NCBI RefSeq assembly: GCF_028289705.1
Contig: NZ_JANQOI010000034.1
Location: 1 to 64,000 of the forward strand
From: Pelagibius sp.
GTDB taxonomy: Bacteria; Pseudomonadota; Alphaproteobacteria; Kiloniellales; Kiloniellaceae
Length of the DNA: 64,000 nt
Reading direction: 5' to 3'
This document shows, piece after piece, positions 4,255-41,263 of the stretch. The notes under the pieces were generated by a model. It was given only the letters and a program-made list of their open reading frames with translations. It searched no databases and was not told the DNA's origin. Made by a program: the position numbers and the translations under genes. Each line of letters opens with the position of its first letter. Position 1 is the stretch's first letter.

Positions 4255-5238
4255 ATGAAGACAAAGGTCGTCCTGACGGTCGATACCGAACCCTCCATCG
4301 CAGGGGCCTTCATCGATCCCAAGGCCAATCCGCCTTTGATCGACGAGCCTGTGGCCGGCGAGGTGGCGGGCAGGAGCGAGGCTCTGGGGTTCATGATCTC
4401 GACCCTGGGACGCCATGGCCTGCGGGCCACCTTTTTCGTCGAGACGCTGCATACCGCCTACTTCCCCCCCGCCAGCATGGGCCGCTATGTCGAACAGTTG
4501 CAGGCCGCCGGCCAGGACGTCCAACTGCACCTGCATCCGAGCTGGCTGTCGTTCGAGAACGGCCGCCTGGCGGTGGGCGAAAAGGTCACCGACCACTGCA
4601 GCGAGTTGGGCCGGGAACGGCTGGTGGAGGTGATCCGGCGCGGCTGCGAACAGATCGCGTCCTGGACGGGCCGGCGGCCGACCGGCATGCGCACCGGCAA
4701 CTTCTCCACCGCCTTCAGTGTTTTCGAGGCGATGAACGACGCCGGGCTGGAAAACGCTTCCAACATCTGCCTGGCCGTCTACCAGCCGCCGGAAGAGAAA
4801 CTCTGGCTCTCCGGTGGCAGCCACCGCCTGGCCGGCATCCGTGAACTCCCGGTAACCTGCTTCACCGACAGCGGCCCGGTGGGACGGGGCAGGCTGCGCC
4901 CCCTGCAGGTAACCGCCCTCAGCGCCGACGAAATGATCGCCCTGTTGCAACAGGCCCACGACGGACAGAGGGGGGTCGTCGTTATCGTCACCCACCCCTT
5001 CGAGTACCTGAAGAAAAGAGACTTTCGCTTCCGCGGGCTGAAGGCCAATCGCCTGGTCCAGGGAAGGCTGGAGCGGCTTTGCGCCTTTCTGGCGGCGAAC
5101 GACGACAGGTTCGACGTCGTCAGCCTGGAAGAGGCGGCGCAGGACACGGAGGCGGAGAACGCGCCACCATTGAAGGGCCATGCCCTGCGCGCGGCCCTGC
5201 GCGCCGCCGCCAACGTTGTGAACGACCGGCTCTTGTGA
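4255..5238 (+). CDS. Polysaccharide deacetylase family protein
   Basis: A 327-residue protein with the NodB-like metal site in variant form: TVDTE (D10, E12) near the N-terminus and LHLHPSW (H92, H94). It has no signal peptide, so it appears cytoplasmic. The family removes N-acetyl (or similar) groups from amino sugars using a divalent metal. The stop codon overlaps the GTG start of the ATP-grasp gene (GTGA), indicating translational coupling. Substrate unknown. Confidence 0.75.
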   Translation: MKTKVVLTVDTEPSIAGAFIDPKANPPLIDEPVAGEVAGRSEALGFMISTLGRHGLRATFFVETLHTAYFPPASMGRYVEQLQAAGQDVQLHLHPSWLSFENGRLAVGEKVTDHCSELGRERLVEVIRRGCEQIASWTGRRPTGMRTGNFSTAFSVFEAMNDAGLENASNICLAVYQPPEEKLWLSGGSHRLAGIRELPVTCFTDSGPVGRGRLRPLQVTALSADEMIALLQQAHDGQRGVVVIVTHPFEYLKKRDFRFRGLKANRLVQGRLERLCAFLAANDDRFDVVSLEEAAQDTEAENAPPLKGHALRAALRAAANVVNDRLL

Positions 5239-6491
5239 GCGGGCCCGGCGCAGCGCCAGGCAATCAGGAGCCAAACCAGCAGGAGACGGTGATCCTCCTG
5301 GGCACCGACACGCCAATCGGCCTGGCGGTAGTCCGCGACCTCGGCCGTCACGGCTATCGCACCATCGGCATCGGCCGCTCCAGGGAGGCCTTGGCCGGAT
5401 ACTCAAGGTTCTGCCATCACCATGCCGTTCGCCGAGACGACGAGGCCGGGTTGATCGAACAGATCAAAGATCTGGCCACAAAGTACGGGGCCGGCTACCT
5501 ACTGGCCATCGGCGAGAACGATCTGCTGTTGCTGAACCGCCATCGCGAAGCGCTTGAGACAGAGCTTCGCGTCCTGACACCGAGCGGCGACCGCCTGGCG
5601 CAGGTGCTCGACAAAGCCGCCTGCCAGGCGCACGCCGAAGCCGCCGGCATCGCGACCCCGCAAACCCACCGCTTCCGGTCGCTTGAGGACGTACGCTCAG
5701 CTGCGCCGGGTCTGAGCTATCCCCTAGTGCTCAAGTGGCCCGACCCCCATCAGGTGATCGATGCCCTGAAAGCCGCCGGCTTGGCGCTGATCAAGACGGA
5801 CTATGCACAGAACCCGGAGGATCTGGTGGCACGCCTGGCGCCCTACGACGCCATCGGCGCCTTCCCCCTCGTCCAGGCCTATTGTCCGGGCCACGGGCTC
5901 GGGCAGATGTTTCTGGCGCAGGACGGCGAGGTGCTCCTGGAGTTTCAGCACGAGCGACTGCACGAATGGCCACCGGAAGGGGGCTTCTCGACCCTCTGCC
6001 GCAGCGTCCCGCTCTCTGAGCACGGGGAAGCCAGAGAGAAAGCCCGCGCTCTACTGCGGCGCCTGAATTGGAGCGGCGTCGCCATGGTCGAGTATCGCTA
6101 CGACCCGGCGACGGAAGGCTACGTCTTCATGGAAATCAACGGGCGTTTCTGGGGCAGCCTGCCGCTGGCGATCGCCGCCGGTCTGCCCTTCGCCGCCGCG
6201 CTGGTGGCGCACTGCGGCGGTGGCACGCGCAGTCTCACGCTGCCACGCAGCTACGCCGCCCTGACCGCCTGCTATTGGATTCCGGAGACCAAGCGCCTGC
6301 TGCGCCTGTGGCTAGAGCGCCGAAAGATCCAGGACCCCTTCTACCGGCCCGATCCCTGGCGCTCCCTGATTTCCTATCTCAGCTTTCCCCTGCGCCTCTC
6401 GAGCCGCTGGTATGTCTTCCAGCTCTCAGATCCCAAACCCTTCTTCGCGGATCTGGCCGCGGTGCTGGTGAAGCTGGTGAAGCGACGTTGA
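5235..6491 (+). CDS. ATP-grasp carboxylate-amine ligase-like protein
   Basis: The preferred start is a GTG at 5235 that overlaps the preceding stop as GTGA, giving 418 residues. Upstream codons in this frame overlap the deacetylase gene and look non-coding. The N-terminus (VILLGTDTPIG) is a Rossmann-like pre-ATP-grasp domain. The central part contains ATP-grasp elements, including PLVLKWPDP and the metal-binding segment VFMEINGRFWG. Enzymes of this class join a carboxylate to an amine or thiol through an acyl-phosphate. In an EPS locus it could amidate or aminoacylate a uronic acid or lipid-sugar precursor, but that is inference. Last gene of the plus-strand operon. Confidence 0.75.
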   Translation: MSGPGAAPGNQEPNQQETVILLGTDTPIGLAVVRDLGRHGYRTIGIGRSREALAGYSRFCHHHAVRRDDEAGLIEQIKDLATKYGAGYLLAIGENDLLLLNRHREALETELRVLTPSGDRLAQVLDKAACQAHAEAAGIATPQTHRFRSLEDVRSAAPGLSYPLVLKWPDPHQVIDALKAAGLALIKTDYAQNPEDLVARLAPYDAIGAFPLVQAYCPGHGLGQMFLAQDGEVLLEFQHERLHEWPPEGGFSTLCRSVPLSEHGEAREKARALLRRLNWSGVAMVEYRYDPATEGYVFMEINGRFWGSLPLAIAAGLPFAAALVAHCGGGTRSLTLPRSYAALTACYWIPETKRLLRLWLERRKIQDPFYRPDPWRSLISYLSFPLRLSSRWYVFQLSDPKPFFADLAAVLVKLVKRR

Positions 6492-6518: not shown

Positions 6519-8174
6519 CTACAGCTTTCTTGCACCGGGCGCGCCCATGGCATCCCGCAACGCCTCCACCGCCTGTTCGATACGGCCGAAACAGGTCCTG
6601 AAGTAGCTTCGCGACAGCCGATAGGGATCGTAGAGCAGGGCGAGAGGCGGGCGGCACCAGAGCCCCAGCAACGCCAACTGCACCTCGTGACCCTGTAGGT
6701 GCGGTGCCAGCGCCCGCAGATGCCGGTCCTCCATCACCAGGAAAAGATCGCCCTTCTGGATGGCGAAATCGGCCAGGGCGGTGGTCTTGTGCCGGGAGAG
6801 ATCGACGCCGAAGTCGCGCGCGACCTCGCTGGCGACACTGTCCGCCGGATGGCCGCTCCCTGCCCCCAGTCCCAATGAAGCGACCGGCAAATCCCCCATC
6901 AGTTTCTGCGCCAGATGGTGCCCGAAGGGACTGCGGCAGACATTGCCCTGGCAGACGAAGACCAATCGTCTGACCTTGGTGAATTCGACCCGGCCATAAC
7001 GCCGATAAGGGCCGAACATCCAAAGGATGTTGGCGATGACCAGCCGCACCAGCCCGCGGTGGGTGCCGAAGACCTCGGCCATGAACTGCCCGACCCAATC
7101 GAAGAGGGCGGTGATCCACCGCTTGACGATGTGCTTCTTCTGCTCGGTCACCAGGGAAATTCCATAGGCCGTCGCCACGATGAGCAGAATGTAGCCGACA
7201 TAGGCGCCCGGACCGACCCGCGTGTCGCCCACGCCCTCGGTTCCGAAGAGCGCGAAGTAGAACAGGATCATAGGGCCGTGCAGCAGATAGAGCGTAAAGG
7301 TGGAACCGGCCAGGGCCTGGATCGGCCTGGCCCAAAGGGCGGACACCTCTTGGTGGCGCTCACAGATGGCCCGCAAACCGACGAAATGGGTGGCAACGCA
7401 GAGCGCCAGGACGTAGTCCGCCGGAAAGCGCTGACTGGAGACGAACTCCCGGGTCCATTCCGGGCCGACCAACGCAAGCAGCAGACCCCGGCCCCAACCG
7501 GCGACGTTCCAATCAACATAGGCGGCAAGGCCCAGGATGGAGGCCAGCACCAGGACCCAGCCGAGGCCCGGAGAGATTCTGCGCAGGGTCTGGGACCGAT
7601 AGAGATAAACCCCGGCCCACCATAGCGGCATCAGGATGATGATCTTCGGGCCGAGCAAGAGGGCGAGCATGAGGAACAGCAGCCATCCCTTGCGGCCACC
7701 CAAATAGGTGACCAGGGCGAAGCCGGCGTAGTACCAGACCTCATAGCCCAGGCTCCAGTAGGGGACGTTGGAGAAGGGTTGAATGGAAAGGAACCAGACC
7801 TGGTTGAGGAACAGCAGGCTTGCGATCACCCGGATGGGGATCAGGTCCCAGGCTTGGTATCCGACCGGATAGGCGTTCGGGTCGACCGAGTAGCCGATGA
7901 AGTCGAAAGCGCCGGTGAGCAGGATGGCCGGCAGAACCACCGAGTAGATGCGCGCCAGGCGTGAGATCGAATAGGCCCTGAGCGTGCGCTCCTTGGTGTC
8001 GCTGACATAGGCGATGACATAGCCGGAGAGCAGAAAGAAAACGATGACCGCCTCGTGGCCCAGACCGACCAGGAAATGGCCGGGATTGTAGAGATAGCGG
8101 GCATGGTGCAGCAGCACCAGAAAGGCGGCGAGAAAGCGCACCAGATCGAGATAGACGGAAAAGCTCCCGGTCAT
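6519..8174 (-). CDS. Acyltransferase-3 membrane domain fused to low-molecular-weight protein tyrosine phosphatase
   Basis: 551 residues in one uninterrupted frame. Residues 1-390 are an OafA/YrhL-type acyltransferase: early FLAAFLVLLHHARY with its conserved His and about ten helices. Residues 403-551 are a complete LMW-PTP domain, with the CQGNVCRSP loop (C408, R414, S415; the C-x5-R-S signature) and the C-terminal general-acid motif DPY (D516). LMW-PTPs such as Wzb normally dephosphorylate the EPS tyrosine kinase as separate proteins. Here the phosphatase is tethered to an O-acyltransferase of the membrane. It starts 11 bases after the upstream GNAT gene and ends tail-to-tail with the ATP-grasp gene. 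Confidence 0.85.
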   Translation of the reverse strand: MTGSFSVYLDLVRFLAAFLVLLHHARYLYNPGHFLVGLGHEAVIVFFLLSGYVIAYVSDTKERTLRAYSISRLARIYSVVLPAILLTGAFDFIGYSVDPNAYPVGYQAWDLIPIRVIASLLFLNQVWFLSIQPFSNVPYWSLGYEVWYYAGFALVTYLGGRKGWLLFLMLALLLGPKIIILMPLWWAGVYLYRSQTLRRISPGLGWVLVLASILGLAAYVDWNVAGWGRGLLLALVGPEWTREFVSSQRFPADYVLALCVATHFVGLRAICERHQEVSALWARPIQALAGSTFTLYLLHGPMILFYFALFGTEGVGDTRVGPGAYVGYILLIVATAYGISLVTEQKKHIVKRWITALFDWVGQFMAEVFGTHRGLVRLVIANILWMFGPYRRYGRVEFTKVRRLVFVCQGNVCRSPFGHHLAQKLMGDLPVASLGLGAGSGHPADSVASEVARDFGVDLSRHKTTALADFAIQKGDLFLVMEDRHLRALAPHLQGHEVQLALLGLWCRPPLALLYDPYRLSRSYFRTCFGRIEQAVEALRDAMGAPGARKL

Positions 8175-8185
8175 GACCGGCGAGG

Positions 8186-9292
8186 CTACTGCGCAGCGCT
8201 GGGGCGCAAAACTGCTCGTGCCCGGCGCGCCCAGTTGCGGCCCTGCATCATGGCCGCGAGCATGGCTCCGCGCGGTGTCTGGCGATTATAGGCCATGATG
8301 CCCCAAAGTTCGCGGCGCGTGGTCAGCCACTGGGTTTTGTAGGCTTCGTCACCGATACCGAAATCGATTCGTGATACCTTCTCCTCATCGATGAGGTACT
8401 GCATGACGTTATAGGTAAGCACGCCACCCACTGAGAGATTGCTGGGCGCCATTGGGTCGTATGCTGTCTTAAATCCAATAGCCGTCGCATTGGAGACAAT
8501 GATGAGCCAGCTTGCCACTGGCGCACCGCTAAGAAACAGGTTGCCCAGCCGCAAGCATCCGCGCTCCGCACAACTGCGCATCAAGCCATCCATGAAATCG
8601 GGATGGAGTTCCGGCTCCTTCCAACTGGCTCCATAGACCGTCTTGAACGCAGTGATCGCCCGCTCAGCCCCCTCGCCGCCTTTGTAGATCTCGCAAGAAG
8701 CATCGGGCCGGCGGGCAAATCGCCGGGCCTTCCAAGCAAGAGTTTTTTTGACGCTCTTGCCGCGATCCGCGATGTAGTCGTCGAAAGAACGGCCGGCAAC
8801 ATCCTCATACCAGTTACCGAACTGAAAATAGGGTTCAGTAACCAGCCCACAGCTATCGAAGGCTTCCAACAGATAGTCGAACACCTCCGAATCACGGTCC
8901 AGCATGCGAAGCGAGACGGCATCCCAACGCGGCCTGTCACGCAAGAGAGCGCCAACGAGTTCATGAACGATTTTCCGGCGATCAGAGACATGCTCGCCAA
9001 CAAGAGGAGAGAAGCGCAAGGTATAGACGTTGTGGCAACCGCTCAGGAGGCGTGATCCGTATGGTCCGCGCTGTCGCGGCATGCCGATCGCCGGCAAAAG
9101 TGCCTGAGGACGTCCGCTGCCGCTCTCCTCCAGGCCGTAGAAACGCTGCTCCTCACCTGGCGATGCGGTGGTCGCCAAGAGGACGCGGTACCAGAGAGCG
9201 CTGTTGAAAAAACTCTCTTTTTCCGCCGTACGGAACAATGCCTCATAGCTCTCAGGAAGTGCCTCTAGACCGTCGTATCGTCTCACTTCCAT
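8186..9292 (-). CDS. GNAT / FemAB-like (BioF2-type) acyltransferase
   Basis: 368 residues, resembling the GNAT fold proteins related to CelD/FemAB often found in capsule and cellulose loci. Visible features are the substrate segment RGKSVKKTLAWKARRF near the middle and a C-terminal GNAT-like block (GAPVASWLIIV, then DFGIGDEAYKTQW). It probably adds an acyl or aminoacyl group to a sugar or lipid precursor. GAGGA about 8 bases before the ATG supports the start. Operon head for the acyltransferase-phosphatase fusion downstream. Confidence 0.7.
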   Translation of the reverse strand: MEVRRYDGLEALPESYEALFRTAEKESFFNSALWYRVLLATTASPGEEQRFYGLEESGSGRPQALLPAIGMPRQRGPYGSRLLSGCHNVYTLRFSPLVGEHVSDRRKIVHELVGALLRDRPRWDAVSLRMLDRDSEVFDYLLEAFDSCGLVTEPYFQFGNWYEDVAGRSFDDYIADRGKSVKKTLAWKARRFARRPDASCEIYKGGEGAERAITAFKTVYGASWKEPELHPDFMDGLMRSCAERGCLRLGNLFLSGAPVASWLIIVSNATAIGFKTAYDPMAPSNLSVGGVLTYNVMQYLIDEEKVSRIDFGIGDEAYKTQWLTTRRELWGIMAYNRQTPRGAMLAAMMQGRNWARRARAVLRPSAAQ

Positions 9293-10978: not shown

Positions 10979-11119
10979 GTGCCAGCGGCGCGGGGGGCCG
11001 CTGCGGGCCTTGAGGTGCCAAGGGACGGATGCCGGATCGATGGCATAGCGGGCCCTCGAGCAGGGGTGCGGGTGCCCTGTAAGGCACGGCAGGATCAAGA
11101 GGATGCGGACAGGGTATGA
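10979..11119 (+). CDS. Possible 46-residue leader ORF before the asparagine-synthetase-like gene
   Basis: A GTG at 10979 is preceded by AAGGA with a 7-base spacer, and the 46-codon frame ends in ATGA overlapping the next gene's ATG at 11116. The peptide is rich in Arg, Ala, Gly and Val with two Cys. Only about two thirds of third codon positions are G or C, lower than real genes here. I recognise no family. It may be a coupled leader peptide or chance; low confidence. Confidence 0.25.
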   Translation: MPAARGAAAGLEVPRDGCRIDGIAGPRAGVRVPCKARQDQEDADRV

Positions 11120-13089
11120 GCGGCTTTTGCGGGTGGCTTGCGAAAGAGGGATGCCCGGAGTCAGCGCCTCTGCTGTTGGATCGAATGGCCGCGGCCCTCA
11201 CGCGCCCCTTGGCCGACCCTGCTGCGGAGCCCGCCGCTATCCGCTCGGCCTGCAGCGTACAGCCGGCCGCTGCCCTGGCGCTGCGCGGCGCCCCTGAGGA
11301 GACTGCCTGGCGGGAGGAGGACGGGCTCTGCGCCGCCATCATCGGCTATCCGCGCTGGGCCGACGCGACGCTCGATGCCCTGGCGCGCCGGCAGGGCCAG
11401 GGGGCAGCGCTGCTGGAGGCATACCGCCGCCACGGCCACGACCTTCTGGGGCGGCTGTTTGGGCATTTCACCTTTGCCGTGCTGGACCCAAAGCGGGATC
11501 GCCTGTTCAGCGCCATCGACCGCTTCGGAGTCTATCGCCTCTGCTATGCCAACCCTCGGCCCGGCGATCTGATCTTCGCAACCTCCGTCGACGCGATCCG
11601 GAGCTATCCCGGAATGACGGCTACGATCGCCCCGCAAACGCTCTATCAGTACCTCTACTTCATCGACCGCGTGGCCGCCCCCGGGACGATCTATGAAGAG
11701 CAGAGCAAGCTGCGCCCCGGCGAGGCGCTGCTTTTCGAGAACGGTGCGCTGCGCTGCTGGCGCTATTGGCAGATGGACTACCGCCACCCCTCCGGCGCCG
11801 GGCGGGACGACCAGCATCGGGCCCTGCGCGACCGGCTGGAACAGGCCGTGGCCCGCTGTCTGGAAGGGGAGACGGCGAACCAGACCGCGAGCTTCCTGAG
11901 CGGTGGCCTCGACAGCAGCACCGTCACGGGTTTTCTCGCCAAGGCCAATGAGGGCCAGGGGCGCTGCGTCACCATTGCTTTCGAACACGACGCCTTCGAC
12001 GAGACCCCCTACGCCGAGCGCGCCGCCAAGCACTTCGGGCTGAAGCACGAGGTCTTCATGGTGGGCCCGCAGGAGGTTCTGGCAGTGCTGCCGAAGCTCT
12101 CCCACGCCTTCGACGAGCCCTACTCCAACTCCTCGGTCGTGCCCTGCTACTACTGCGCCCTGGTGGGCCGGGAAAGCGGCAACACGGTGATGCTCGCCGG
12201 CGACGGCGGCGACGAGCTCTTCGGCGGCAACAGCCGCTACCTGAAGGACGACGTCTTCGACCTCTACGGCAAGCTGCCGGCCGCGCTACGCGGTGGCCTG
12301 CTGGAGCCGCTGCTGGCCCACCTGCCGGGGCGGGATCGGCTTTCCCTCCTGCGGCGCGCCAACAACTATATCGCGCTGGCCAAGCGGTCTGTCGCCGACC
12401 GCATGAACAGCCACAACGCCTTTGCCTTCACGCCGGTGGAGCGGGTCTTCAGCGCCGAGGCCTTCGCCAGCGTGGATCCGAAGGGTCCGATGCGCTTCGC
12501 CGATGCGATCTACGAGGCGGCCGACGGCGACGCCAAGATCCAGAAGATGATGCATTTCGATCTGCAGGTGACCCTTGCCGACAGCGACCTGCGCAAAGTG
12601 CTGACCAGTTGCACGCTGGCCGGCATGCGGGTCCGCTTTCCCATGCTGGACGACGATCTCGCCATCTTTTCCGCCACGCTTCCGGCGGCGCTGCTGACCG
12701 AGGGCGGCAAGATCCGGCACTTCTACAAGCAGGCGCTGGCCGGCTTTCTGCCTCAGGCGATCATCGACAAGCCCAAACAGGGCTTCGGTCTGCCGATGTT
12801 TCACTACATTGCCGACACCCCGGACCTCGCAACGTTTTTCTGCGACGCACTCAGCGATCTGAAGCGCCGCTTCTTCTTCGACACCGGGTTCCTCGACCGG
12901 ATGATCGCAGACGTCCGCCGCGGCGAGCCCGGCAGCCAAGCCGGGATCGTCTGGGACCTGGCGGTTCTGGAAACCTGGATGGCCTCCCGTGACATTGCTG
13001 CGGACGGCAGGACCGCAGGTCGGGGTCCGGAAACTGCCCCGGGAACGTCCCCGGGATCCGCCCCCGCCAAAGCGGCCCAGCAAGGATAG
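11116..13089 (+). CDS. Asparagine-synthetase-like ATP-dependent amide ligase lacking the glutaminase cysteine
   Basis: 657 residues. The synthetase half is intact: PP-loop FLSGGLDSSTVTG near residue 265 and AGDGGDELFGG near 360. The N-terminal glutaminase-like domain is degenerate: the protein starts MSGFCGW, so position 2 is Ser rather than the catalytic Cys. It should therefore be unable to release ammonia from glutamine in the usual way. Similar degenerate homologues form amide bonds with other amines, or act as lasso-peptide cyclases. No lasso precursor, protease or recognition element is visible nearby. A sulfotransferase follows after 8 bases in the same operon. Confidence 0.8.
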   Translation: MSGFCGWLAKEGCPESAPLLLDRMAAALTRPLADPAAEPAAIRSACSVQPAAALALRGAPEETAWREEDGLCAAIIGYPRWADATLDALARRQGQGAALLEAYRRHGHDLLGRLFGHFTFAVLDPKRDRLFSAIDRFGVYRLCYANPRPGDLIFATSVDAIRSYPGMTATIAPQTLYQYLYFIDRVAAPGTIYEEQSKLRPGEALLFENGALRCWRYWQMDYRHPSGAGRDDQHRALRDRLEQAVARCLEGETANQTASFLSGGLDSSTVTGFLAKANEGQGRCVTIAFEHDAFDETPYAERAAKHFGLKHEVFMVGPQEVLAVLPKLSHAFDEPYSNSSVVPCYYCALVGRESGNTVMLAGDGGDELFGGNSRYLKDDVFDLYGKLPAALRGGLLEPLLAHLPGRDRLSLLRRANNYIALAKRSVADRMNSHNAFAFTPVERVFSAEAFASVDPKGPMRFADAIYEAADGDAKIQKMMHFDLQVTLADSDLRKVLTSCTLAGMRVRFPMLDDDLAIFSATLPAALLTEGGKIRHFYKQALAGFLPQAIIDKPKQGFGLPMFHYIADTPDLATFFCDALSDLKRRFFFDTGFLDRMIADVRRGEPGSQAGIVWDLAVLETWMASRDIAADGRTAGRGPETAPGTSPGSAPAKAAQQG

Positions 13090-14113: not shown

Positions 14114-15319
14114 CTACGGCTTAACGAGCCTTCGATAGAGCGGGTCGTAGTGGGCGGCACTGGCCTCCCAACTGCGCTGGCCCTCGACAAAGGCGCGCCC
14201 TGCCGCACAGATCTCGGGCCAGCGGGGGCGCCGGGCGAAGAGGTCGTGGAGCGCGCGGACCAGGCCGGCCTTGTCGTCGGCAGGAAAGAGGAAACCGGTC
14301 TTGCCGTCCTCGATCAGCTCCTGATGGCCGCCGACGTCGGAGGCGAAGACCAGCTTGCCCTGGGCCATGGCCTCCAGCGGCTTCAGGGGGGTCACCAGTT
14401 CGGTCAGGCGCATGCGGTGGCGGGGATAGACCAGCACGTCGAGCAGGCCGTAGTAGCGCTCCACCTCCTCGTGGGGCACGCGGCCGGTGAAGATGGCGCG
14501 GTCCTCCACCCCCAGATCGCGCGCCAGGGCCTTCAGACGGGCCTCCTGCGGGCCCCCGCCCACCAATAACAACTTCAACCCGGCAAGCTCTCCCCGCAGC
14601 TCCGCCAGGGCCTCGATCAGCAGGTCGAGCCCCTCGTAGGCATAGAAGGAGCCGATGAAGCCGATGGCCGCGCCCGGCTCCAGGCCCAGGCGGGCCAGCA
14701 GCGCGTGGTCACGCGGCGGCGCGTTCTGGAAGGTGGTCAGATCCACGGCGTTGGGCACCACGGTCACCTTGTCGGCGGCGATGCCGCGGTCCAGAACGTC
14801 GCGGCGCAGGCCCTGGCAGATGGTCACCACGCCATCGGCCCGGCGCAACAGGTAGCTCTCCAATCCACGGGTGGCGCGGTAGCGGAGCCCCCAGGGCCGG
14901 GCACCGTGGAGGTTGACGGCGGCGTCCTCCCAGAAGGCGCGGACCTCGTAGACCAGCGGCAAGCCCTCCCGCCGGGCGACGGAGAGCGCCGGCAGCCCGT
15001 TCAGGATCGGGGAATGGGCATGCAGGATATCCGGGCGGACCTCCCGCACCAGGCGTTGCAGGCGGGCACGGGTGGCGGCCATCTGGCGCCAATCCCCCGC
15101 CAGGGGGAGGGTGGCGATGGCGGAATTCGAAATCGGCGTCCGGTAGAAATGCCAGCCGTTCACCGACTCCTCGGGCCCGTGGGTTTCGGGATGGCGCGGG
15201 GTGGTGAGCTGAAAGGTCTCCCAGCCACGGGCGCGCTGGGCGCGCAGGATCCCCAAGGTTCGAAACACATAGCCGCTTTGCTGCGGCAAAGAGTGATCGA
15301 GAACGTGGAGGATGCGCAT
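14114..15319 (-). CDS. Exosortase A-associated GT4 glycosyltransferase (Daro_2409 family)
   Basis: About 401 residues from the ATG at 15319; the frame stays open a further 12 codons. The opening MRILHVLDHSLPQQSGYVFR is characteristic of the glycosyltransferase family found in PEP-CTERM/EPS loci. The GT-B C-terminal domain shows FIGSFYAYEGLD, LLLVGGGPQ and the donor-site stretch containing TPLKPLEAMAQGK. It builds the polysaccharide repeat on the cytoplasmic side. Donor sugar unknown. It is separated from the PEP-CTERM gene upstream by a strong terminator. Confidence 0.85.
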   Translation of the reverse strand: MRILHVLDHSLPQQSGYVFRTLGILRAQRARGWETFQLTTPRHPETHGPEESVNGWHFYRTPISNSAIATLPLAGDWRQMAATRARLQRLVREVRPDILHAHSPILNGLPALSVARREGLPLVYEVRAFWEDAAVNLHGARPWGLRYRATRGLESYLLRRADGVVTICQGLRRDVLDRGIAADKVTVVPNAVDLTTFQNAPPRDHALLARLGLEPGAAIGFIGSFYAYEGLDLLIEALAELRGELAGLKLLLVGGGPQEARLKALARDLGVEDRAIFTGRVPHEEVERYYGLLDVLVYPRHRMRLTELVTPLKPLEAMAQGKLVFASDVGGHQELIEDGKTGFLFPADDKAGLVRALHDLFARRPRWPEICAAGRAFVEGQRSWEASAAHYDPLYRRLVKP

Positions 15320-15444
15320 CACCGGGCCCTTAACCGATAGCGGAGATCGGATCAAGGTGTTTCAGGTTCGGGCTCGGCAGAGCCGAGGCACGCGCGTCAC
15401 TGGCGGAGCTTACGAGGGTCGCGGAGCGCCCCGGAAAAATGACC

Positions 15445-15521: not shown

Positions 15522-16442
15522 TCAGACCGCCGTGAGCCGCTTCCGCGAGAAGACACCCAAGACCAGCAGACCGATGCCGAAGAGCAGCAGGTTCACCGGT
15601 TCCGGAACGATGGAGAAGGTGTTGTTGCCGTCCACCTGGAACAAGATGTCGTTCGCCGCGACCGCAGTGTCAGGATAGAAGGCCGACCCGCCGACATGGA
15701 AGTCCGTTGTGTTGGCCGCAGGAGGCGTAGGAGGAAACTGCAGCGTGCCGAAGAACTCAAGATCGAACACAGTATCGATCAGGCCGAGAATGAACTCATC
15801 GAGCACAAAGTCCAATGCCGCCTGGACTTGAGCGTCGAGGGTCGCGACGCCAACCCCGCTGCTTCCGGTGGTTGCCGTGAAGGTCGAGGTCTGCGAAACG
15901 AGTGAGAAGCGCGCGACCTCGGTGCCGTCGTCATAACCGGTACCGGCAGCGATGCTGGCTTCCGTGCCGCCCCCGCCCAGTCCTACTTCGTCATAGAAGA
16001 TCGAGATCGTGCCGCCGGCACCGCCAAGACCAAAGATGGCGGACGTTCCACCGCCCAAGACCGCGGTCACGACTTCTTGGAAGCGGGCCACGATCGTGAA
16101 CTGATATTCCGTACCGGCAAGCGCACCACCAGTGCCGCTTGAGTTCAGCGTTGACGCGAAGGACACCGCACCACCGCCCGGATCCGTCGCACCGGTCAGA
16201 ATCGATTGGTAAACGAAGTCGAAGGTCTGGCCCACCGCCAGCGGTGCGCCGAAGGGCCCGATGCCAATGGCCAGGCCGGCGGAGCTGGAGGTCCAGTCCA
16301 TTTCCCTGACATTCGATGCAAGGGTGCCGCCACTGCCATCCAGCAGATCCACATCCGTCAGCGGGCCGGCGTCAGCCGTAACCGGGGCGAGCCCCAGCAT
16401 AGCAACCGCACCGGCGGCGAGGGTAAGCTGCTTCAAATTCAT
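15522..16442 (-). CDS. PEP-CTERM sorting-domain protein
   Basis: 306 residues from the ATG at 16442, chosen because it begins a clear signal peptide (MNLKQLTLAAGAVAMLGLAP, cleavage near ADA-G) and has an AAGGA ribosome site. The mature part is Gly/Ser/Thr-rich, beta-type and low in charge. The C-terminus has the sorting signal: VPEP, one hydrophobic helix, then the basic cluster RKR. An exosortase would cleave near VPEP during export, and the protein is likely surface- or matrix-associated. A sigma-54 promoter precedes it and a strong terminator follows, so it is monocistronic. Confidence 0.92.
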   Translation of the reverse strand: MNLKQLTLAAGAVAMLGLAPVTADAGPLTDVDLLDGSGGTLASNVREMDWTSSSAGLAIGIGPFGAPLAVGQTFDFVYQSILTGATDPGGGAVSFASTLNSSGTGGALAGTEYQFTIVARFQEVVTAVLGGGTSAIFGLGGAGGTISIFYDEVGLGGGGTEASIAAGTGYDDGTEVARFSLVSQTSTFTATTGSSGVGVATLDAQVQAALDFVLDEFILGLIDTVFDLEFFGTLQFPPTPPAANTTDFHVGGSAFYPDTAVAANDILFQVDGNNTFSIVPEPVNLLLFGIGLLVLGVFSRKRLTAV

Positions 16443-16501
16443 TGCCTTGATCCTTCTCCAAACTCCAGGCCCAAAGGAGCCCGCCATAGTTCGCTCTATA
16501 A

Positions 16502-16518
16502 ATGCAATCCCTATGCCA
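16502..16518 (-). promoter_or_regulatory. Sigma-54 (-24/-12) promoter of the PEP-CTERM gene
   Basis: On the minus strand the sequence reads TGGCATAGGGATTGCAT, that is TGGCAT-N5-TTGCA with GG and GC 10 bases apart. It differs from the consensus only at the last base of the -24 hexamer. Transcription would begin near 16492, giving a leader of about 50 bases before the ATG at 16442. The window also encodes PrsR, the sigma-54 activator linked to PEP-CTERM genes in other bacteria. Confidence 0.82.
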
Positions 16519-16686
16519 GATCGATACTTTCCCATAATTACAAAACCTTAACTGCCCATAGCTCGTTGACGGAGGGCACCATCGGGAAAATCTGTAAGAT
16601 ATTTTGACAATTTGACGCCGGCACGGTCAAAAATCCCGCAAAACATCCTCGAAGATCCGAGAACAGACAAGTCTTTCAATGTACTA

Positions 16687-20738: not shown

Positions 20739-23576
20739 TCATCGAGTCAGGGCGGCGAGAAGGGCTTCAGCATCCTCGCGCTCGCGGAACGCTTCGGGAT
20801 CGCTCAGAATCCGCTCCAGTTCGATAACGGCCTGGCTGATATCGCCGGCCGCGCTCAGCGCTTGCGCAAGATGAAATCGGAAGGTCCGGTCATCCGGAGC
20901 GTCTTCGGTGATGGTCTTCAACAGTTCGATCGCGTCTAGTTCCTGGCCGGCATGCAGCAATGCCATGGCCAGGGTATCGGAGACGCTGATACTCTGCGGC
21001 ACCAAGTCGGCGGCCCTGCGCGCCGCGGCGAGGGCGCTCTGGGAATCGCCCAATTCAATCTTGACCCATGCAAGATTGTTCAGAGCCCGCGCATCGTTGG
21101 GCTGCCGCGCCAAGACAGCTTCGTATGATTCGGCTGCTTCTTCCCAGCGGCCCAGCGCCATCAGGTACTCTGCCTGGCGATGCCGGACCACCGCATCTTG
21201 CGGATTCTCTGCGACCCAGTCCGCCATCGAAGCCAAGCCCCTTTCGCCCTGACCGGCTTGAAATCTGGCATGCACAAGATCCAGAAAAATCAGGCTGTTT
21301 GCGTCTTTCGCCAGAGCGGCCTCGAAGGCCGCTGCCGCCTGTTCCGGTCTTCCTTCTTCCAGAGCGATCTTGCCCTCGATTACCAGGAGCCTTTCGTCCT
21401 CCGGCGCGTCCTGCTTCAGAGCACTGACGAGTTCCTGGCTCTCGTCCAAGCGCCCCAACAAGAATAGCAGGTTCGCCTGTGCCAGCTTGATGGCTGCATT
21501 GTCGGGCTCCAGCCGTGCAGCCTTTTCGATGGCGGTCCAGGCCTCTTCTGTTCGCCCGAGCTGTATCAGGGCCAGGCTGCGATACTCATGGGCGCGCGCG
21601 TCGGTGGGGGTCTTCGAGACCAGCCGGTCCAGGAGGGTCAGAGCCTCCGACACTTCGCCGCTCTTCAGCAAGGCCAGGCCTACGGTCTTCGTCAATTGAG
21701 GATTGTTCGGGTTGGCATCCAATGCCGACTCGCCGACTGCGACGGCCTCGGCGAAATCGCCGGTCTCGGACAAACTGCGGGCCAAGAGCGCGCGCGCCTG
21801 CCACGCATCGGGATTGTTATCCAAGATGCGGCGCAATAGGGACTGGGCTTTGGCCTCGTCGCCGGCACTTCTTGCCAAGGTCGCATACACAAGAAGCAAG
21901 GCCGGATCTTCGGGGCTCTGCTTTAGGGCTTCTTCGATCACAGAGACCGCCTCATCGGCCCGGTCTGCAGCCCGCAGAAGTTGGGCGAGATTGCCAACCG
22001 CCTCGGGGTTGTCGGGCTCCTTTTCCAATGCGAGCCGCAGTGCCGCTTCCGCGCCGGCCACATCGCCCTGAGCGAAGAGGGCCATAGCTTCAAGGGTAAA
22101 GCCGGCGGCCTGCTCCGGCAGGCTTTGCTGCATCTGTTTGGTCAACAGGATGGCACTAGAGTAATTGCGGTTTTGAACATGCACGCCGAACAGATGTGAG
22201 TAGGCCTTTTCTGAACGTGGGTTGAGCGCCAGTGCTTTGTTCAGGGTCTCCACGCCTTGCTCGATTTCCCCTGCAGCAATCTGGGAAAGCCCGAGATCCT
22301 CCTGAATCTCGGGATCCTCCGGCGCGCTCGCGGCCAGCCTTTTCAGGTATTTGAGGGTTGCGCTCTGGTCCTCCATTCTGGCAGCCGCCGATGTCAGAAC
22401 ACCCAGATAGGCGGTGGTATCCGGAATGTCCTCACCAGGCTCCGCCATCAAACCGTAAGCTTCCTTCGTGTATCCCAGTTTCAGCAGCGTCGCCCCCAGC
22501 ACCGCGCGAGCCGCGTCGTCTTGGGGTCGTTGAGTCAGATAGACGGCGAGATTGCGCCTGGCTTGTTCGAATTCCAGAAGCTGATAGGAGCTATAGCCCG
22601 CGATCAAAGCGGCTTGCGGCTGCGTTTGGTAAAACGCCAAGACGCGGTCGGCCGCAACCTTGGCGGCCCGATAGTCGTGCTGCAGAAACAGGACAATGGC
22701 CTCCTGCAGAACCACAAGGATGCTGTCAGGCTGGGTAGATTTGAGGGTCCGGACAATCCGGGCGGCCTCGTCCAGTTCGCCGAGGCCGATATGGGCTTCG
22801 ATCAGGCCGACATAGGGTATTGGACTCGTGGGATCCAGCTTGATGCTGCGGGTGTAACTGGTCTTTGCGCTTTCGAACTGCCGGGCCCTTAGAGACCACG
22901 CAGCATCGGTCGTCGTCACCAGGGGATTGTCGGGATCTGCGGCCAGAGCCTGATCGAGCATTTCCCTCGCCGCCGCCATATCGCCGAGCGAAACCGTGAT
23001 GCGTGCCTTGTTGGCCAGGGCTGCGCCGTGGGGGCCGTCCTGCAGCACCCGGTCAAAGATCGCCAGAGCTTCGTCGAACTGGCCAAGGTTCAAAAGCGCT
23101 TCGCCACGGGCCACATAGAGATCCCGCTGCAGATCGCTTTCGATGACGATATCGTCGGGCACCTCGCTGACGACATCTTGGAACCGCCTGAGCTTGAGCC
23201 GCGTCTGCGCCAGTAGAAGGTTGAGTTCTTCGCCGCCGTAACCCAGCTCCTCTGCCCGCTGGAGTTCCTTTTCCGCCGCCGAAACGTCGTTCAACTGCCA
23301 CAGCACCTTGCCGAGGAGGAACCGCGCCTCGGCGTTGTCGGGCTCGCGCTGCAGGGCGTTCTTCAGCTCTACCGCTGCGGAAGCGAGGTCACCTTCCTCG
23401 TAATACTGCTGCGCGCGCTCCAGGAAGCTTGTGCTCCAGGCGGGCATGGGCCCCAGGATGAGCGCCGCGGCCAGCAGCCAGCTCGCCACCAGGACCATCA
23501 GCGGGGGCCGGGCAGAGCGTTCAACCATGGTTGCGCAGGCTGCCTTGCCGATTGCGGAAACTGCATGGATCTTCAT
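20739..23576 (-). CDS. prsT: PEP-CTERM system TPR protein PrsT
   Basis: 945 residues: an N-terminal export signal (hydrophobic LMVLVASWLLAAALILGPMP, then AWS) followed by about 25 TPR-type helical repeats with the W/LG/Y/A/F/A/P spacing, e.g. ELKNALQREPDNAEARFLLG. This matches the PrsT family encoded beside PrsK/PrsR in PEP-CTERM/EPS loci. No lipobox Cys is visible at the signal end, although many relatives are described as lipoproteins. It is probably a periplasmic scaffold for EPS assembly or export. It is divergent from prsK, and a close relative is encoded at 53843-56713. Confidence 0.88.
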   Translation of the reverse strand: MKIHAVSAIGKAACATMVERSARPPLMVLVASWLLAAALILGPMPAWSTSFLERAQQYYEEGDLASAAVELKNALQREPDNAEARFLLGKVLWQLNDVSAAEKELQRAEELGYGGEELNLLLAQTRLKLRRFQDVVSEVPDDIVIESDLQRDLYVARGEALLNLGQFDEALAIFDRVLQDGPHGAALANKARITVSLGDMAAAREMLDQALAADPDNPLVTTTDAAWSLRARQFESAKTSYTRSIKLDPTSPIPYVGLIEAHIGLGELDEAARIVRTLKSTQPDSILVVLQEAIVLFLQHDYRAAKVAADRVLAFYQTQPQAALIAGYSSYQLLEFEQARRNLAVYLTQRPQDDAARAVLGATLLKLGYTKEAYGLMAEPGEDIPDTTAYLGVLTSAAARMEDQSATLKYLKRLAASAPEDPEIQEDLGLSQIAAGEIEQGVETLNKALALNPRSEKAYSHLFGVHVQNRNYSSAILLTKQMQQSLPEQAAGFTLEAMALFAQGDVAGAEAALRLALEKEPDNPEAVGNLAQLLRAADRADEAVSVIEEALKQSPEDPALLLVYATLARSAGDEAKAQSLLRRILDNNPDAWQARALLARSLSETGDFAEAVAVGESALDANPNNPQLTKTVGLALLKSGEVSEALTLLDRLVSKTPTDARAHEYRSLALIQLGRTEEAWTAIEKAARLEPDNAAIKLAQANLLFLLGRLDESQELVSALKQDAPEDERLLVIEGKIALEEGRPEQAAAAFEAALAKDANSLIFLDLVHARFQAGQGERGLASMADWVAENPQDAVVRHRQAEYLMALGRWEEAAESYEAVLARQPNDARALNNLAWVKIELGDSQSALAAARRAADLVPQSISVSDTLAMALLHAGQELDAIELLKTITEDAPDDRTFRFHLAQALSAAGDISQAVIELERILSDPEAFREREDAEALLAALTR

Positions 23577-24073: not shown

Positions 24074-26236
24074 TTGCAGGGACTGACCATTGGATACCTG
24101 AGCTACGGGACGGCGGCCCTCGCCTACCTCGTCCTGGCCGGCTTCTATCTCTGGCGCGGTCGCTGGGGCAGCCACGGGCCCTTTTTCCTGACCGCCGTCG
24201 CAGCCACCGTGCTCTGGGCGCTGGTCGCGTTCTCCGGCCACGACGTCATTCCGCGGTTCGCCGCCTGGACCCTGCTTCTCAAGCAGTTCGCGATGCTCGC
24301 CTGGGCTTGGTTTCTCTGGCACTTCATCGCGTCCCTTGAGCCCTACAAGGCCCGCTTTCCCCAGCGCCTGCTCCTGGGCTGGATATTCATCTCCCTGCTC
24401 AGCGTCACCACTCTGGTTATCCTGGGCGTGAACCTTCTGCTTGGGCTGCCCTGGGTCAATCTGGGCTTCTTTGGGTTCAATTCCGCCTTGCTGCCTCTGC
24501 TCATGGGGCTGGCCATCGCGCTCTTTGGATTGTCCCTCACCGAAACGCTCTACCGCGGCTACCGCTCCGCCGAGCGCTGGGGGGTCAAATATCTCTGCCT
24601 CGCCACCGGCGGCCTCTTCGCCTACGACATCTTTCTCTATGGCGAAGGCCTGATCTTCCGCGCCATCGACCCGGCCTTCATGGACATCCGCGGCCTAGCC
24701 CAGGCCTTGGTGGTTCCCTTCCTGATCATCAACATCCGTCGCAGCCAGGTGCGCCATTTCGCCCTTGGGCTCTCCCAGCGGCTGGTCTTCGGCTCCACCG
24801 TTGTCTTCGGCGCCGGGATCTATCTGGTCATCATGGCGGTCGCCGCTTTTTACGTGAGGATCATGGGCGGCGCCTGGGGCAGTGCGGTGCAGATCATTTT
24901 CCTCTTCGCTGCCTTGCTGCTGCTGGTGACCTTCCTGATGTCAGGGTCGTTCCGCGCCCAGGTCCGCTACTTCCTGTCGCATCATGTGCTGGCGGACAAG
25001 TACGACTACCGCGGCGAATGGCTGCGCTTCAGCGGGCGCCTGGCAGCCGCCGAAAGCGACGAAAGCTTCGAGCGGCGGGTGATCCGGGCGCTGGCCGACA
25101 TCGTCGACAGCCCGGCGGGCGCGCTGTGGAGCGTGGGCGACAATCACCTGCCCATCGCGGCAGCCTGGAACCTCTCGCCGACCAGCCTCAGCGCCGTCGA
25201 AATGGCGAGCGTCGAAGACTACCTGAAGTCCCGCGATCAGGTCTTGGACCTCGCTGACGACGAAGACGACATCGCGGACGCGCCGGAGGCCTGCGCGCGC
25301 CTTCTGGAGGCCCTGAAGGCGATCCCGGATGCCTGGGTTCTGATCCCACTGTTGCATCAGGACCGCCTCGTCGCCCTGCTGCTGCTGACGCGCTCGCGCT
25401 CGCCCCGCGACCTGACGCCGGAGGACGGGGAACTGCTCGCCGCGGCCGCGCGCCAGGCAGCCGGCTTGCTCGCCGAACAGCGGCTGGCCCGCGACCTTGC
25501 GGAAGCGCGCCAGTTCGAGCGCTTCAACCAGCGCTATGCCTTCGTGGCCCACGACCTGAAGAACCTGGTGAGCCAGCTTTCCTTGATGGTGAAAAATCAC
25601 GAGCGCTTCGGAGAAAGGCCCGAGTTTCAGGAGGACATGATCGAAACCATCAAGTCGGCGGTGGCCCGCATGGAGAACGTCATGGCGCGCCTGAGCGGCG
25701 GCAACCTCGGCGCGCGGGAGAACGAAGCGGGGAAAAGCGAGACCGGGCCGGCAAAGGGCAAGAACGGCGCAGAGCCCGAGGCCGGCCTCGTTCCCCTCCT
25801 ACAGCGGCTGGTCACCAAGTACGAAGACAGCGTCGATACCCTCGACCTTTCCCTGTCCGGCCAGTCCGCGCAGTGCGGTCCCAGGACCGATTGCGCGCGC
25901 ATCGAGACCATGCTCAACCACCTGCTGCAGAACGCCATCGAGGCCGCCGGCGCCCACGGCCGCATCACCGTGACGCTGCGCGACCAGGACCACCAGATGG
26001 TGATCGAGGTGCGCGACAACGGACCCGGCATGGAGGCGCGCTTTATCGAGGAAGAGCTGTTCAAGCCCTTTCGCAGCACCAAGAGCGGCGGCTTCGGAAT
26101 CGGTGCCTATCAATGTAGAGTTCTGGCCCGGGAGTTGGGCGGCGAGTTGGAAGCCATTTCCGCGCCCGGCGCCGGCACCACGATGCGTCTGATCCTGCCC
26201 CGTGAACCGGCGGAAAAAACTGTATCGCGGGCCTAG
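24074..26236 (+). CDS. prsK: PEP-CTERM system sensor histidine kinase PrsK
   Basis: 720 residues starting at a TTG preceded by AGGGGAG. About eight membrane helices occupy residues 1-300. A GAF-like sensory domain follows, then the phosphoacceptor box FVAHDLKNLVSQLSLM (His493) and an ATPase domain with NHLLQNAIEAA, DNGPGM and GGFGIGAYQC. This architecture is that of PrsK, the kinase paired with PrsR in exosortase/EPS loci. prsR follows after 73 bases, so the two are probably cotranscribed. The stimulus is unknown. Confidence 0.9.
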   Translation: MQGLTIGYLSYGTAALAYLVLAGFYLWRGRWGSHGPFFLTAVAATVLWALVAFSGHDVIPRFAAWTLLLKQFAMLAWAWFLWHFIASLEPYKARFPQRLLLGWIFISLLSVTTLVILGVNLLLGLPWVNLGFFGFNSALLPLLMGLAIALFGLSLTETLYRGYRSAERWGVKYLCLATGGLFAYDIFLYGEGLIFRAIDPAFMDIRGLAQALVVPFLIINIRRSQVRHFALGLSQRLVFGSTVVFGAGIYLVIMAVAAFYVRIMGGAWGSAVQIIFLFAALLLLVTFLMSGSFRAQVRYFLSHHVLADKYDYRGEWLRFSGRLAAAESDESFERRVIRALADIVDSPAGALWSVGDNHLPIAAAWNLSPTSLSAVEMASVEDYLKSRDQVLDLADDEDDIADAPEACARLLEALKAIPDAWVLIPLLHQDRLVALLLLTRSRSPRDLTPEDGELLAAAARQAAGLLAEQRLARDLAEARQFERFNQRYAFVAHDLKNLVSQLSLMVKNHERFGERPEFQEDMIETIKSAVARMENVMARLSGGNLGARENEAGKSETGPAKGKNGAEPEAGLVPLLQRLVTKYEDSVDTLDLSLSGQSAQCGPRTDCARIETMLNHLLQNAIEAAGAHGRITVTLRDQDHQMVIEVRDNGPGMEARFIEEELFKPFRSTKSGGFGIGAYQCRVLARELGGELEAISAPGAGTTMRLILPREPAEKTVSRA

Positions 26237-31183: not shown

Positions 31184-32920
31184 CTAGAGCGGCTTGGCCT
31201 GATAGCGCTGGGCCAGGAACTCCAGGGTGGCGATGCGGTTGAAGACCTCCTCGTCGGCAACCCGGTCCACCGCGAAGAGGGCACGCATGTTGGGAAAGCC
31301 GGGCTCCATGACGGCGGCCAGATGCGCGGGCGACAGATAGGCCGGCTTCGGCCCCGGCGTGCCTTGCTGGAGGCGATAGCTGCGGCGGCGCAGCCAGATC
31401 GGACGCCGGTAGCTCGCCAGGGCGCGCAGACGCTCCAGCCAGCCCGGCGGCTGGTCGAAGGGCCGGCCATAGACCGAGGGATAGGCCGCCAGACGCGGTG
31501 AGAGCTGGCGGATCATCTCGGCCTCGATGAGGCCGTGGCTCTTCCAGGCAATCTTCCAGTCCGGCGTTCCCTTGATGACGGCGGGTTCCATGAAGGGCGT
31601 GAGATAGAGCCCGAAGCCCTGGTTCAGGGGCACCTCACGCGCGCTCCAATAGCGGCCGCGATAGAGCGGGTAGGCCAGCTCCACCTGGCGCCGGGTCAGC
31701 CGCGGCCCGGCCGCGCCGAGGGCGGCCATCAGCGCTTCGGCCACCCCCTCTTCGTAAGCCACGGCATCGAAACGTGCCGTCGTCACCCGGGGGTCGTAGC
31801 GTGCATAGAAGGCCTGGACCACTTGGCGGGCGGTGAAGGGCCGGTCGGGGAGATAGAAGAAGTTGCGGTGTATCTCGCCCAGGGAGCCGTTCATCTTGGC
31901 CCAGCCGCCGGCGGCCTGGGCTTCGCGGTCGAGGCGGTCGGCACCGCTGTCGAAGAGCCCGGTCACGCGCCAGCCGTCGAAAGCGGCATAGTCGGCAAGC
32001 ACGACATCCCCGAAGGCCTCGGGCGGCGGTGTCGCCACCTGCGACTTGTCCACCGGATTGAAGTCGAGCCCCTCGCCTCCGGCCACCAGCGCGGCGATCT
32101 CCCGGTCGCGGTCGCCCTCCGGCCCATAGACCGTCAGCCGCGGGCGGATGCCGGCCGCGAGCAGCAGCGCCAGCAGCAGGCGGGAATCGTAGCCGCCGGA
32201 GAACAGCAGGTTGACCCGCTCCCCGAACGCCCTGCCTGTCTCTTCCGTCAGCGCGGTCAGCCGGTCGCACTGGCGCCGGGCGGCCACGGCCATGGACTCG
32301 CCGGGGACCGCCTCAGTCTCGTCCAGATCGAGCGGCGGCAGAAAGACCTGGCTCGGCGTTCCCTCCGCCGGGATCACCGCCATGCGGCCGGCAGGCAGGC
32401 TACTCAGCTCTTGAAAGAAGCTGCGCTCCCCCGAGGGCACGCCGTTCCAGACGTATTCGTAGCAGCCCTGCGCATCGAGGTGCGGGGTCTCCAGGCCTTC
32501 GGCCACGCCGACGAAAAGATTGGAGAAAACCCGCTGATCCCCGTCATGGTAGATCTTGTTGGTCCCCAGCGGATCGCCGAGCAGGTACAGGCGTGCGGCT
32601 TTGCGGATCAGCAGAGTGAATTGGCCGCGCGTTTCCGTCAGGTCCGGATCGGCCGGATCGAAGGCCGCGAGAAAGCTTCGAAGGCCATCCGCGCCGGCCC
32701 TTCCCCGATGGCTGAACAGACCGGACCGCAGAATCCAGTTGTCCTCCGCCGTCTGCCAAAATGCATCGTCCGGCGCTTCAGACCCACTGCGCCAGAGCAG
32801 GCTGCTGCCGGGACCGGCCATCAGGGGCGCAAATGTCAGCCCGGCCCGCTCCAGCCGCCCCTGCAGCCGCTGCGCCGCCGTCTCGGGGTCCCGGCCCCGA
32901 CAGAGAATGAAATCAGCCAT
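31184..32920 (-). CDS. Divergent asparagine-synthetase-related ligase without glutaminase cysteine
   Basis: 578 residues. The synthetase part has the PP-loop LLFSGGYDSRLLLAL near residue 240. The N-terminal region starts MADFILCRG and keeps only fragments of the glutaminase fold, with no Cys at position 2. It lacks the DGGDELFGG block of true AsnB, so it is the most divergent of the four relatives here. It probably adenylates a carboxylate and joins it to an amine. It lies 163 bases upstream of the ACP operon on the same strand. Confidence 0.75.
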   Translation of the reverse strand: MADFILCRGRDPETAAQRLQGRLERAGLTFAPLMAGPGSSLLWRSGSEAPDDAFWQTAEDNWILRSGLFSHRGRAGADGLRSFLAAFDPADPDLTETRGQFTLLIRKAARLYLLGDPLGTNKIYHDGDQRVFSNLFVGVAEGLETPHLDAQGCYEYVWNGVPSGERSFFQELSSLPAGRMAVIPAEGTPSQVFLPPLDLDETEAVPGESMAVAARRQCDRLTALTEETGRAFGERVNLLFSGGYDSRLLLALLLAAGIRPRLTVYGPEGDRDREIAALVAGGEGLDFNPVDKSQVATPPPEAFGDVVLADYAAFDGWRVTGLFDSGADRLDREAQAAGGWAKMNGSLGEIHRNFFYLPDRPFTARQVVQAFYARYDPRVTTARFDAVAYEEGVAEALMAALGAAGPRLTRRQVELAYPLYRGRYWSAREVPLNQGFGLYLTPFMEPAVIKGTPDWKIAWKSHGLIEAEMIRQLSPRLAAYPSVYGRPFDQPPGWLERLRALASYRRPIWLRRRSYRLQQGTPGPKPAYLSPAHLAAVMEPGFPNMRALFAVDRVADEEVFNRIATLEFLAQRYQAKPL

Positions 32921-33006
32921 GCGGCGTGCTCAAGCCGGCCGGAATGCCCATGGAAAGTCTTCATTAAACTGTGTTAGCAAACCAGCATCCTGGGGTTGGA
33001 GCCGCC

Positions 33007-33135
33007 ATGGAAGAAACCGTGGACGCCGCCGCCATCCCGCCCGACAGCGTGGAGATACATGGCATGTTTGCCGCCGTGAAAGAATCCCTTTTTGCGCCCA
33101 GGCGGCCCCTGCGGGCATCCAAAAGGCCCTCATGA
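33007..33135 (+). CDS. Possible 42-residue small protein coupled to wecB
   Basis: An ATG at 33007 follows TTGGAG with an acceptable spacer. The 42-codon frame ends in ATGA, overlapping the wecB ATG at 33132. The first half uses GC-ending codons like neighbouring genes (about 71% over the whole frame). The peptide begins MEETVDAAAIPPDSVEIHG and has a basic tail. I recognise no family. It could be a coupled leader peptide that sets wecB translation. Confidence 0.4.
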   Translation: MEETVDAAAIPPDSVEIHGMFAAVKESLFAPRRPLRASKRPS

Positions 33136-34265: not shown

Positions 34266-34275
34266 TTCGGCCGGG

Positions 34276-35346: not shown

Positions 35347-35698
35347 TGGGGAAGCCGGACCCTCGTGAATGACCTGGCGCCGTTCTCGCGCGCGCCGCGC
35401 TGCACTGATAACAGACAGTGGTCTTATCAGGTCCGGCACCCAATCTGAAGGATATCCGGCCCAGGGCCAAAGGTGCCCGTTCGGCCTTCATTTGCCGGGA
35501 GAATTGTATTGCACGCAGAAAACGCTATCTTTAAGTGCTATCTGTTCCCAATAACAACCACTAGTAAGCGATACAAATAAGAAGCGAAGAAATTCAATCG
35601 ATGACTTTACCCGATTTTCACCACAGGTTTGTTCCAATAGCAGAACCTATAATTCTTGGTCGAGAAAACTCGACGAATATTTAGGCGAATCAAATCTA
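35347..35698. other. Divergent AT-rich intergenic region
   Basis: About 350 bases between the deacetylase and the unknown gene at 35699, clearly AT-richer than the genes. It contains the -10/palindrome pair listed at 35648-35674. I see no small gene or RNA I can support. Confidence 0.5.
35648..35674 (+). promoter_or_regulatory. TATAAT -10 element followed by operator-like palindrome
   Basis: TATAAT at 35648-35653 is a perfect -10 hexamer; the -35 region is poor (TTTGTT-like). Just after it lies GTCGAGAAAACTCGAC (35659-35674), a perfect inverted repeat covering the expected start point, 24 bases before the ATG at 35699. A repressor bound there would block transcription; an RNA hairpin at the leader is the alternative. 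Confidence 0.4.
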
Positions 35699-36637: not shown

Positions 36638-36714
36638 CGCAAGAAGCACGCGCCAGGGCAGCGCCGTTGCCGACGATCAGAGACGCGCAACAGCCATTAA
36701 GGGGACGCCGGTCC

Positions 36715-41043: not shown

Positions 41044-41263
41044 GGCGCAAGCAGCCGAGCCGTACCGCTCCGTCCGCCTCCTGCCGTGCAGCTACGCAGC
41101 GCTGAGTCACAAAGCAATCAAAGTCTTATGGTTAATTTCCGCTCCGATGGTTGTGCTCCATCTGTGAGTTCGACTGAAGGGTTGCCGCCGCGCCCTTAGC
41201 ACCCCTTCTTTGGGGGTTCGGAGGGCATCGGAGGGTGAACAACCGCTAGGCGTTATGCTAAGA

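Follow-up and report, generated by a model that had tools for sequence, protein, structure and literature searches.

A rare predicted AT3-LMW-PTP fusion within an XrtA-type polysaccharide system of Pelagibius sp.

Does a single gene of this Pelagibius sp. join a membrane acyltransferase to a low-molecular-weight tyrosine phosphatase (LMW-PTP) and, if so, on what would the phosphatase act? The gene lies in the window, by which we mean the whole stretch of 64,000 nucleotides that was analyzed. The first-pass annotation had reported one uninterrupted frame joining the two enzymes, and a single open frame of 551 codons was confirmed, although on the minus strand, from 8174 down to 6519. The plus-strand reading of 6519-8174 was ruled out because it contains several stops. 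Since homology spans both halves within one frame, a chance fusion is excluded. Judged from its sequence, the gene is a real, rare AT3-LMW-PTP fusion within an XrtA-type polysaccharide system. Its parts are as follows.

6519..8174 (minus strand): AT3-LMW-PTP fusion gene, 551 aa, stop codon included, by ORF call and Pfam
7158..8156 (minus strand): Acyltransferase-3 (PF01757) domain, residues 7-339, by Pfam, with R13-X10-H24 and R72-XX-R75
7080..7121 (minus strand): fusion seam, residues ~352-365, from the ends of free AT3 homologues and the starts of free LMW-PTP homologues
6966..7088 (minus strand): residues 363-403 (QFMAEVFGTHRGLVR...GPYRRYG), an N-terminal extension of the LMW-PTP subfamily that free relatives have conserved
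6558..6962 (minus strand): LMW-PTP (PF01451) domain, residues 405-539, with C408, R414, S415 and D516-P-Y, and a Wzb fold match at Z 22.5

The first-pass annotation had placed the seam at residues 390-403 and had considered an error that removed a stop codon between them. Neither suggestion held when the free homologues were aligned. Free AT3 homologues extend to about residue 352 of the fusion and a little beyond it in a short tail; free LMW-PTP relatives begin at about residue 357-363, already carrying GTHRGLxR...GPYRxYG. Residues 363-403 thus belong to the phosphatase: they form an N-terminal extension seen in a distinct subfamily of LMW-PTPs, and the free relatives have them as their own N-terminus. 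The seam accordingly lies at about 352-365. As far as these alignments tell, two nearly whole proteins are fused with almost no linker. We explored whether a substitution error might instead have erased the stop codon of a separate acyltransferase gene. The fusion is a singleton from a draft assembly of 193 contigs, and a single change would turn some codons of the seam (TGG, CAG) into a stop. However, the frame is continuous across the seam, codon-position GC is similar on either side of it, and two genes so close together would need a chance match of phase. An insertion or deletion error over two normal genes is likewise implausible because, in the other frames through the seam, the next downstream stop is at codon 425 in frame +1 and there is none in frame +2; a single-base frameshift artefact was ruled out since these frames give no plausible two-gene reading. 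We consider a stop codon erased by substitution very improbable.

The acyltransferase half is complete by profile and motifs. The Acyl_transf_3 match at residues 7-339 scored 89.9 bits against a cut-off of 31 (E 2e-25), and the R-X10-H and RXXR motifs that define AT3 proteins (PMC9833829) are both intact, as they are in stand-alone AT3 enzymes such as Oac and WbaK, which also lack an SGNH domain. The fusion differs from these in that a cytoplasmic-type phosphatase comes after the AT3 domain. AT3 proteins move an acyl group from cytoplasmic acyl-CoA onto an external sugar (PMC9833829). The AT3-only architecture comprises 10 TM helices; in SGNH fusions an 11th is required for the added domain to reach the outside (PMC9558356, PMC9833829). 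A simple hydropathy scan of the AT3 part gave nine TM segments rather than ten, together with a weak one at 368-386. The AF2 model had a mean pLDDT of 83 overall and of about 95 in the LMW-PTP part, with values mostly below 50 at residues 280-342; the LMW-PTP domain dominated the PDB fold search with this model, and the matches therefore concern the phosphatase and not the AT3 fold. Since there is no SGNH-type periplasmic linker between the two domains and basic residues come after the last AT3 helix, the phosphatase is placed in the cytoplasm, a location that follows from predicted topology only. The protein falls outside the AT3-SGNH group, its C-terminal domain being LMWPc and not SGNH. It resembles AT3-SGNH proteins (OafA, OafB, OatA) and the AT3-alanine racemase VanT in carrying a second enzyme C-terminal to AT3, whereas its partner is a regulatory-type phosphatase. 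The fusion partners described for AT3 are SGNH, alanine racemase and, in eukaryotes, others (PMC9558356, PMC9833829); no phosphatase was among those named in the AT3 literature that we examined.

The phosphatase half is also complete. Pfam and the alignment agreed with the first-pass reading of a complete LMW-PTP domain with C408-x5-R414-S and D516. The LMWPc match at residues 405-539 scored 66.2 bits against a cut-off of 23.2 (E 5e-18). The active-site loop C408-QGNVC-R414-S415 and D516-P-Y are both present, and C408, R414, S415 and D516-P517 are invariant in the phosphatase alignment. The genome has four LMWPc matches besides this one, of which one is partial. The best PDB matches of the modelled domain were EPS phosphatases, namely Wzb of E. 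coli K30, at Z 22.5 with 1.8 A over 143 residues, followed by AmsI at Z 22.0. The sequence and the predicted fold thus support a phosphatase of the Wzb/AmsI kind. It shares with Wzb, AmsI and VpsU the fold, the C-X5-R-S loop, the D-P-Y and a setting in a polysaccharide cluster, but it belongs to a separate clade (100/99), most members of which have an N-terminal extension of about 45 residues, it is associated with XrtA-type kinases, and it is fused to a membrane enzyme. With the Wzb equivalog model PRK10126 (NCBIfam) it scored 69.7 bits, below the cut-off of 243, and in the tree it lies outside the classical Wzb-like group. By analogy, the domain would work like Wzb though it is not classed as a Wzb equivalog. 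The fold is common to LMW-PTP, ArsC and YwlE, and weak matches to ArsC models were seen, as might be expected of an enzyme acting on a small molecule (sugar phosphate), on arginine or on arsenate rather than on protein tyrosine. Wzb-type models were nevertheless far ahead of ArsC (2e-19 versus 2e-4), D516-P-Y is retained, and the top structural matches were Wzb and AmsI. In the arginine phosphatases YwlE and PtpB, specificity is set by a Thr (PMC8001253), and the matching position in the fusion is V412. An activity other than tyrosine dephosphorylation is for these reasons highly unlikely.

The nearest phosphatase relative is a free protein of 196 aa (genome G434), with 55% identity over residues 363-541. 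Its genome has the same gene order as the window: a deacetylase, an ATP-grasp gene and a convergent LMW-PTP. In a maximum-likelihood tree, the phosphatase of the fusion fell within a clade of ten sampled phosphatases (support 100/99). This clade consists of six free proteins, three that are C-terminal to polysaccharide deacetylases (G1111, G1014, G892) and the AT3 fusion; classical Wzb-like proteins lie outside it. Also outside it are ATP-grasp-LMW-PTP fusions in four genomes (G046, G051, G397, G061), which form a clade of their own (98/96). Both sets resemble the present fusion in having an EPS-type LMW-PTP C-terminal to a tailoring-type enzyme and differ in the partner enzyme, the ATP-grasp group also in its clade. 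The first-pass annotation was therefore correct in assigning the phosphatase to an EPS cluster and went too far in describing such phosphatases as normally free. In G059, G060 and G1013 a free phosphatase gene adjoins a deacetylase-like gene, a layout from which the deacetylase fusions could have originated. A separate AT3 gene is retained in the same cluster of G1014, and G892 has a very similar AT3 gene. The joining of EPS phosphatases to tailoring enzymes of several kinds is, in our opinion, a more interesting result than the single fusion.

The deacetylase-LMW-PTP genes are at L141:8246-9796(-), L142:6761-8347(+) and L143:7798-9387(-); near the latter two, the genes for the chain-length determinant and the kinase of an XrtA-type system lie only a few genes away. 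The ATP-grasp-LMW-PTP genes are at L065:3568-5382(-), L066:9144-11042(+), L067:5951-7675(+) and L133:6623-8599(+) in four alphaproteobacterial genomes. Two of these four loci have a deacetylase-like and a sulfotransferase-like gene alongside. A gene of about 390-400 aa with no assigned function, alike by eye at both places, is found near the fusions at L065:7474-8652(-) and L133:8676-9881(+).

With the fusion protein as query, no second AT3-LMW-PTP fusion was found in about 820 genomes, taken from relatives, from the order (all 61 sampled genomes), from the class (385), from the phylum (398) and from the order to which G434 belongs (27); for the class and the phylum, scoring was confined to the three best candidates of each genome. 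A search of 72,556 plasmid records gave none either. The search covered one phylum and plasmids. A scan of genome contigs returned separate acyltransferases only. Two candidates were rejected. The acyltransferase of G728 lies in a long ORF (569 aa) with no second Pfam domain, and the 594-aa LMW-PTP ORF of G737 has an N-terminal part devoid of a Pfam domain and is probably a read-through frame. In the literature, we found no paper on AT3 or ATP-grasp fused to LMW-PTP. Together, these searches bear out the earlier remark that the architecture is not standard.

Such rarity raises the possibility that two adjacent genes were fused by a near-neutral accident, so that both domains work and their joining adds nothing. 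Among the genomes searched, the AT3-LMW-PTP fusion was seen in one only; there is hardly any linker at its seam, and an internal ATG (M365), from which the LMW-PTP may also be made alone, is near the start of the free relatives. Yet EPS LMW-PTPs are joined to different tailoring enzymes in several lineages, which suggests some benefit. The internal ATG lacks a persuasive ribosome-binding site, its score being -4.5 kcal/mol where the background is -3.4 (sd 2.9); this comparison is weak, since the annotated start of the fusion, at -2.9, scores no better. We regard a neutral accident as unlikely, though well worth keeping in mind.

The genes around the fusion place it in a polysaccharide cluster with components of an XrtA system.

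4255..5238 (plus strand): polysaccharide-deacetylase-like gene, 57% identical to its G434 neighbour
5265..6491 (plus strand): ATP-grasp ligase gene, start codon approximate, convergent with the fusion, 53% identical to its G434 neighbour
8186..9292 (minus strand): Acetyltransf_6 (GNAT/FemAB-like) gene, ending 11 bases before the start codon of the fusion
14114-15355: TIGR04063 glycosyltransferase (XrtA system)
20739-23576: prsT (XrtA system)
24074-26236: prsK (XrtA system)

The Acetyltransf_6 gene is probably in the same operon as the fusion. A promoter and terminator scan gave nothing above chance. A secreted-looking protein at 15522-16535 on the minus strand ends in VPEPVNLLLFGIGLLVLGVFSRKRL, which resembles the PEP-CTERM tail that serves XrtA systems as a sorting signal.

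Which kinase would such a phosphatase serve? The first-pass annotation had proposed an EPS phosphatase for Wzc. The EPS setting was upheld, while Wzc is the less likely partner compared with the XrtA-type split autokinase (TIGR03018), which is enriched in the genomes that host the clade. A TIGR03018 match over the cut-off was present in 8 of the 10 genomes hosting the clade, compared with 4 of 36 controls (Fisher p = 7e-5). This p value is optimistic, since the controls followed the order of earlier samples and were matched neither in genome size nor in EPS content, and since the hosts include related genomes. An XrtA-type kinase was on the contig of the phosphatase, 5-27 kb away, in six clade hosts (G1014, G892, G498, G1013, G1111, G690), a count that includes the kinases of G498 and G1013, which score under the curated TIGR03018 cut-off. 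The XrtA kinase of the fusion's own genome scored 247.8 against the cut-off of 230.65 and has a tyrosine-rich tail, YYSAYYYGYDEKKK. In this draft genome, however, it lies with its chain-length partner (TIGR03007) on contig C22, separate from the contig of the fusion, and this counts against the pairing. Also against an XrtA kinase as the partner are a Wzc-like kinase on contig C91 of the same genome, which is a second candidate substrate, the four further LMWPc matches of that genome, and the deacetylase and ATP-grasp genes, which are the closest recurrent neighbours and either of which could be the true partner. Considered by function as a Wzb-type enzyme, the phosphatase is set in a polysaccharide cluster, with a BY-kinase on another contig of its genome and close linkage to one in relatives. 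We found no paper naming a phosphatase for the XrtA autokinase (TIGR03018). The clade can thus be put forward as a candidate cognate phosphatase subfamily for this kinase.

Considering these observations, a narrow balance of probability favours the reading that an acyltransferase of the cluster anchors to the membrane a Wzb/VpsU-like phosphatase, which would serve the XrtA polysaccharide kinase. The AT3 part would take acyl groups from acyl-CoA in the cytoplasm and pass them to the exopolysaccharide across the membrane, and its cytoplasmic C-terminal end would keep the phosphatase at the membrane. The substrate of the phosphatase would, by analogy, be the XrtA kinase, from whose tyrosine-rich tail it may strip phosphate as Wzb does on Wzc and VpsU on VpsO. 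Dephosphorylation of the VpsO tail by VpsU raises polysaccharide output (PMC7485978). On this precedent, tail dephosphorylation could set the cycle of polymerization and export and keep the kinase productive at the site of polymerization. Other membrane-side enzymes of the cluster may be dephosphorylated as well. Two adjacent genes probably merged to give the fusion, a route that the deacetylase-LMW-PTP fusions also seem to have taken, and the main effect of the joining may be to hold both activities at one place and in a fixed ratio.

An alternative is that the phosphatase acts mainly on tailoring enzymes phosphorylated by the BY-kinase (the ATP-grasp ligase, the deacetylase or the AT3 domain itself) and that the fusions mark its substrates. 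The recurrent neighbours are deacetylase and ATP-grasp genes, the fusions are to exactly such enzymes, and Wzb lowers the activity of Ugd (UDP-glucose dehydrogenase) through dephosphorylation (PMC2516531). On the other hand, autokinases are the best-documented substrates of EPS LMW-PTPs, and it is the XrtA kinase itself that is enriched in the clade hosts. We know of no phosphotyrosine site on ATP-grasp ligase, deacetylase or AT3 enzymes, which also counts against this alternative. We judge it rather unlikely and retain the XrtA kinase as the preferred substrate.

The BY-kinase cycle sets polymer length and export. The first-pass annotation had envisaged a coupling of acylation to this cycle, to which the fusion itself is the only pointer. 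In a broader and quite doubtful proposal, the EPS phosphatase of XrtA-type systems would be a module that swaps its fusion partner between lineages (acyltransferase, deacetylase, ATP-grasp) and through which decoration and phosphorylation of the export kinase become interdependent, with acyl transfer and dephosphorylation mechanically coupled in the present case. The fusion and its parallels name concrete partners for how polymer decoration meets the BY-kinase cycle and make this question testable.

Other genes were also recorded in the window. Three asparagine-synthase-like genes lie within 31184-47142, besides one at 11116-13089. An NRPS-like gene (41308-47142) and a phosphopantetheinyl-transferase-like gene (47139-48023) are also inside this polysaccharide-type cluster. 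Finally, a 691-aa ORF at 50688-52763 on the plus strand, adjoined by two GNAT-like genes at 48626-50675, seemingly combines a ThiF/E1-type adenylylating domain with a nitroreductase-like part.
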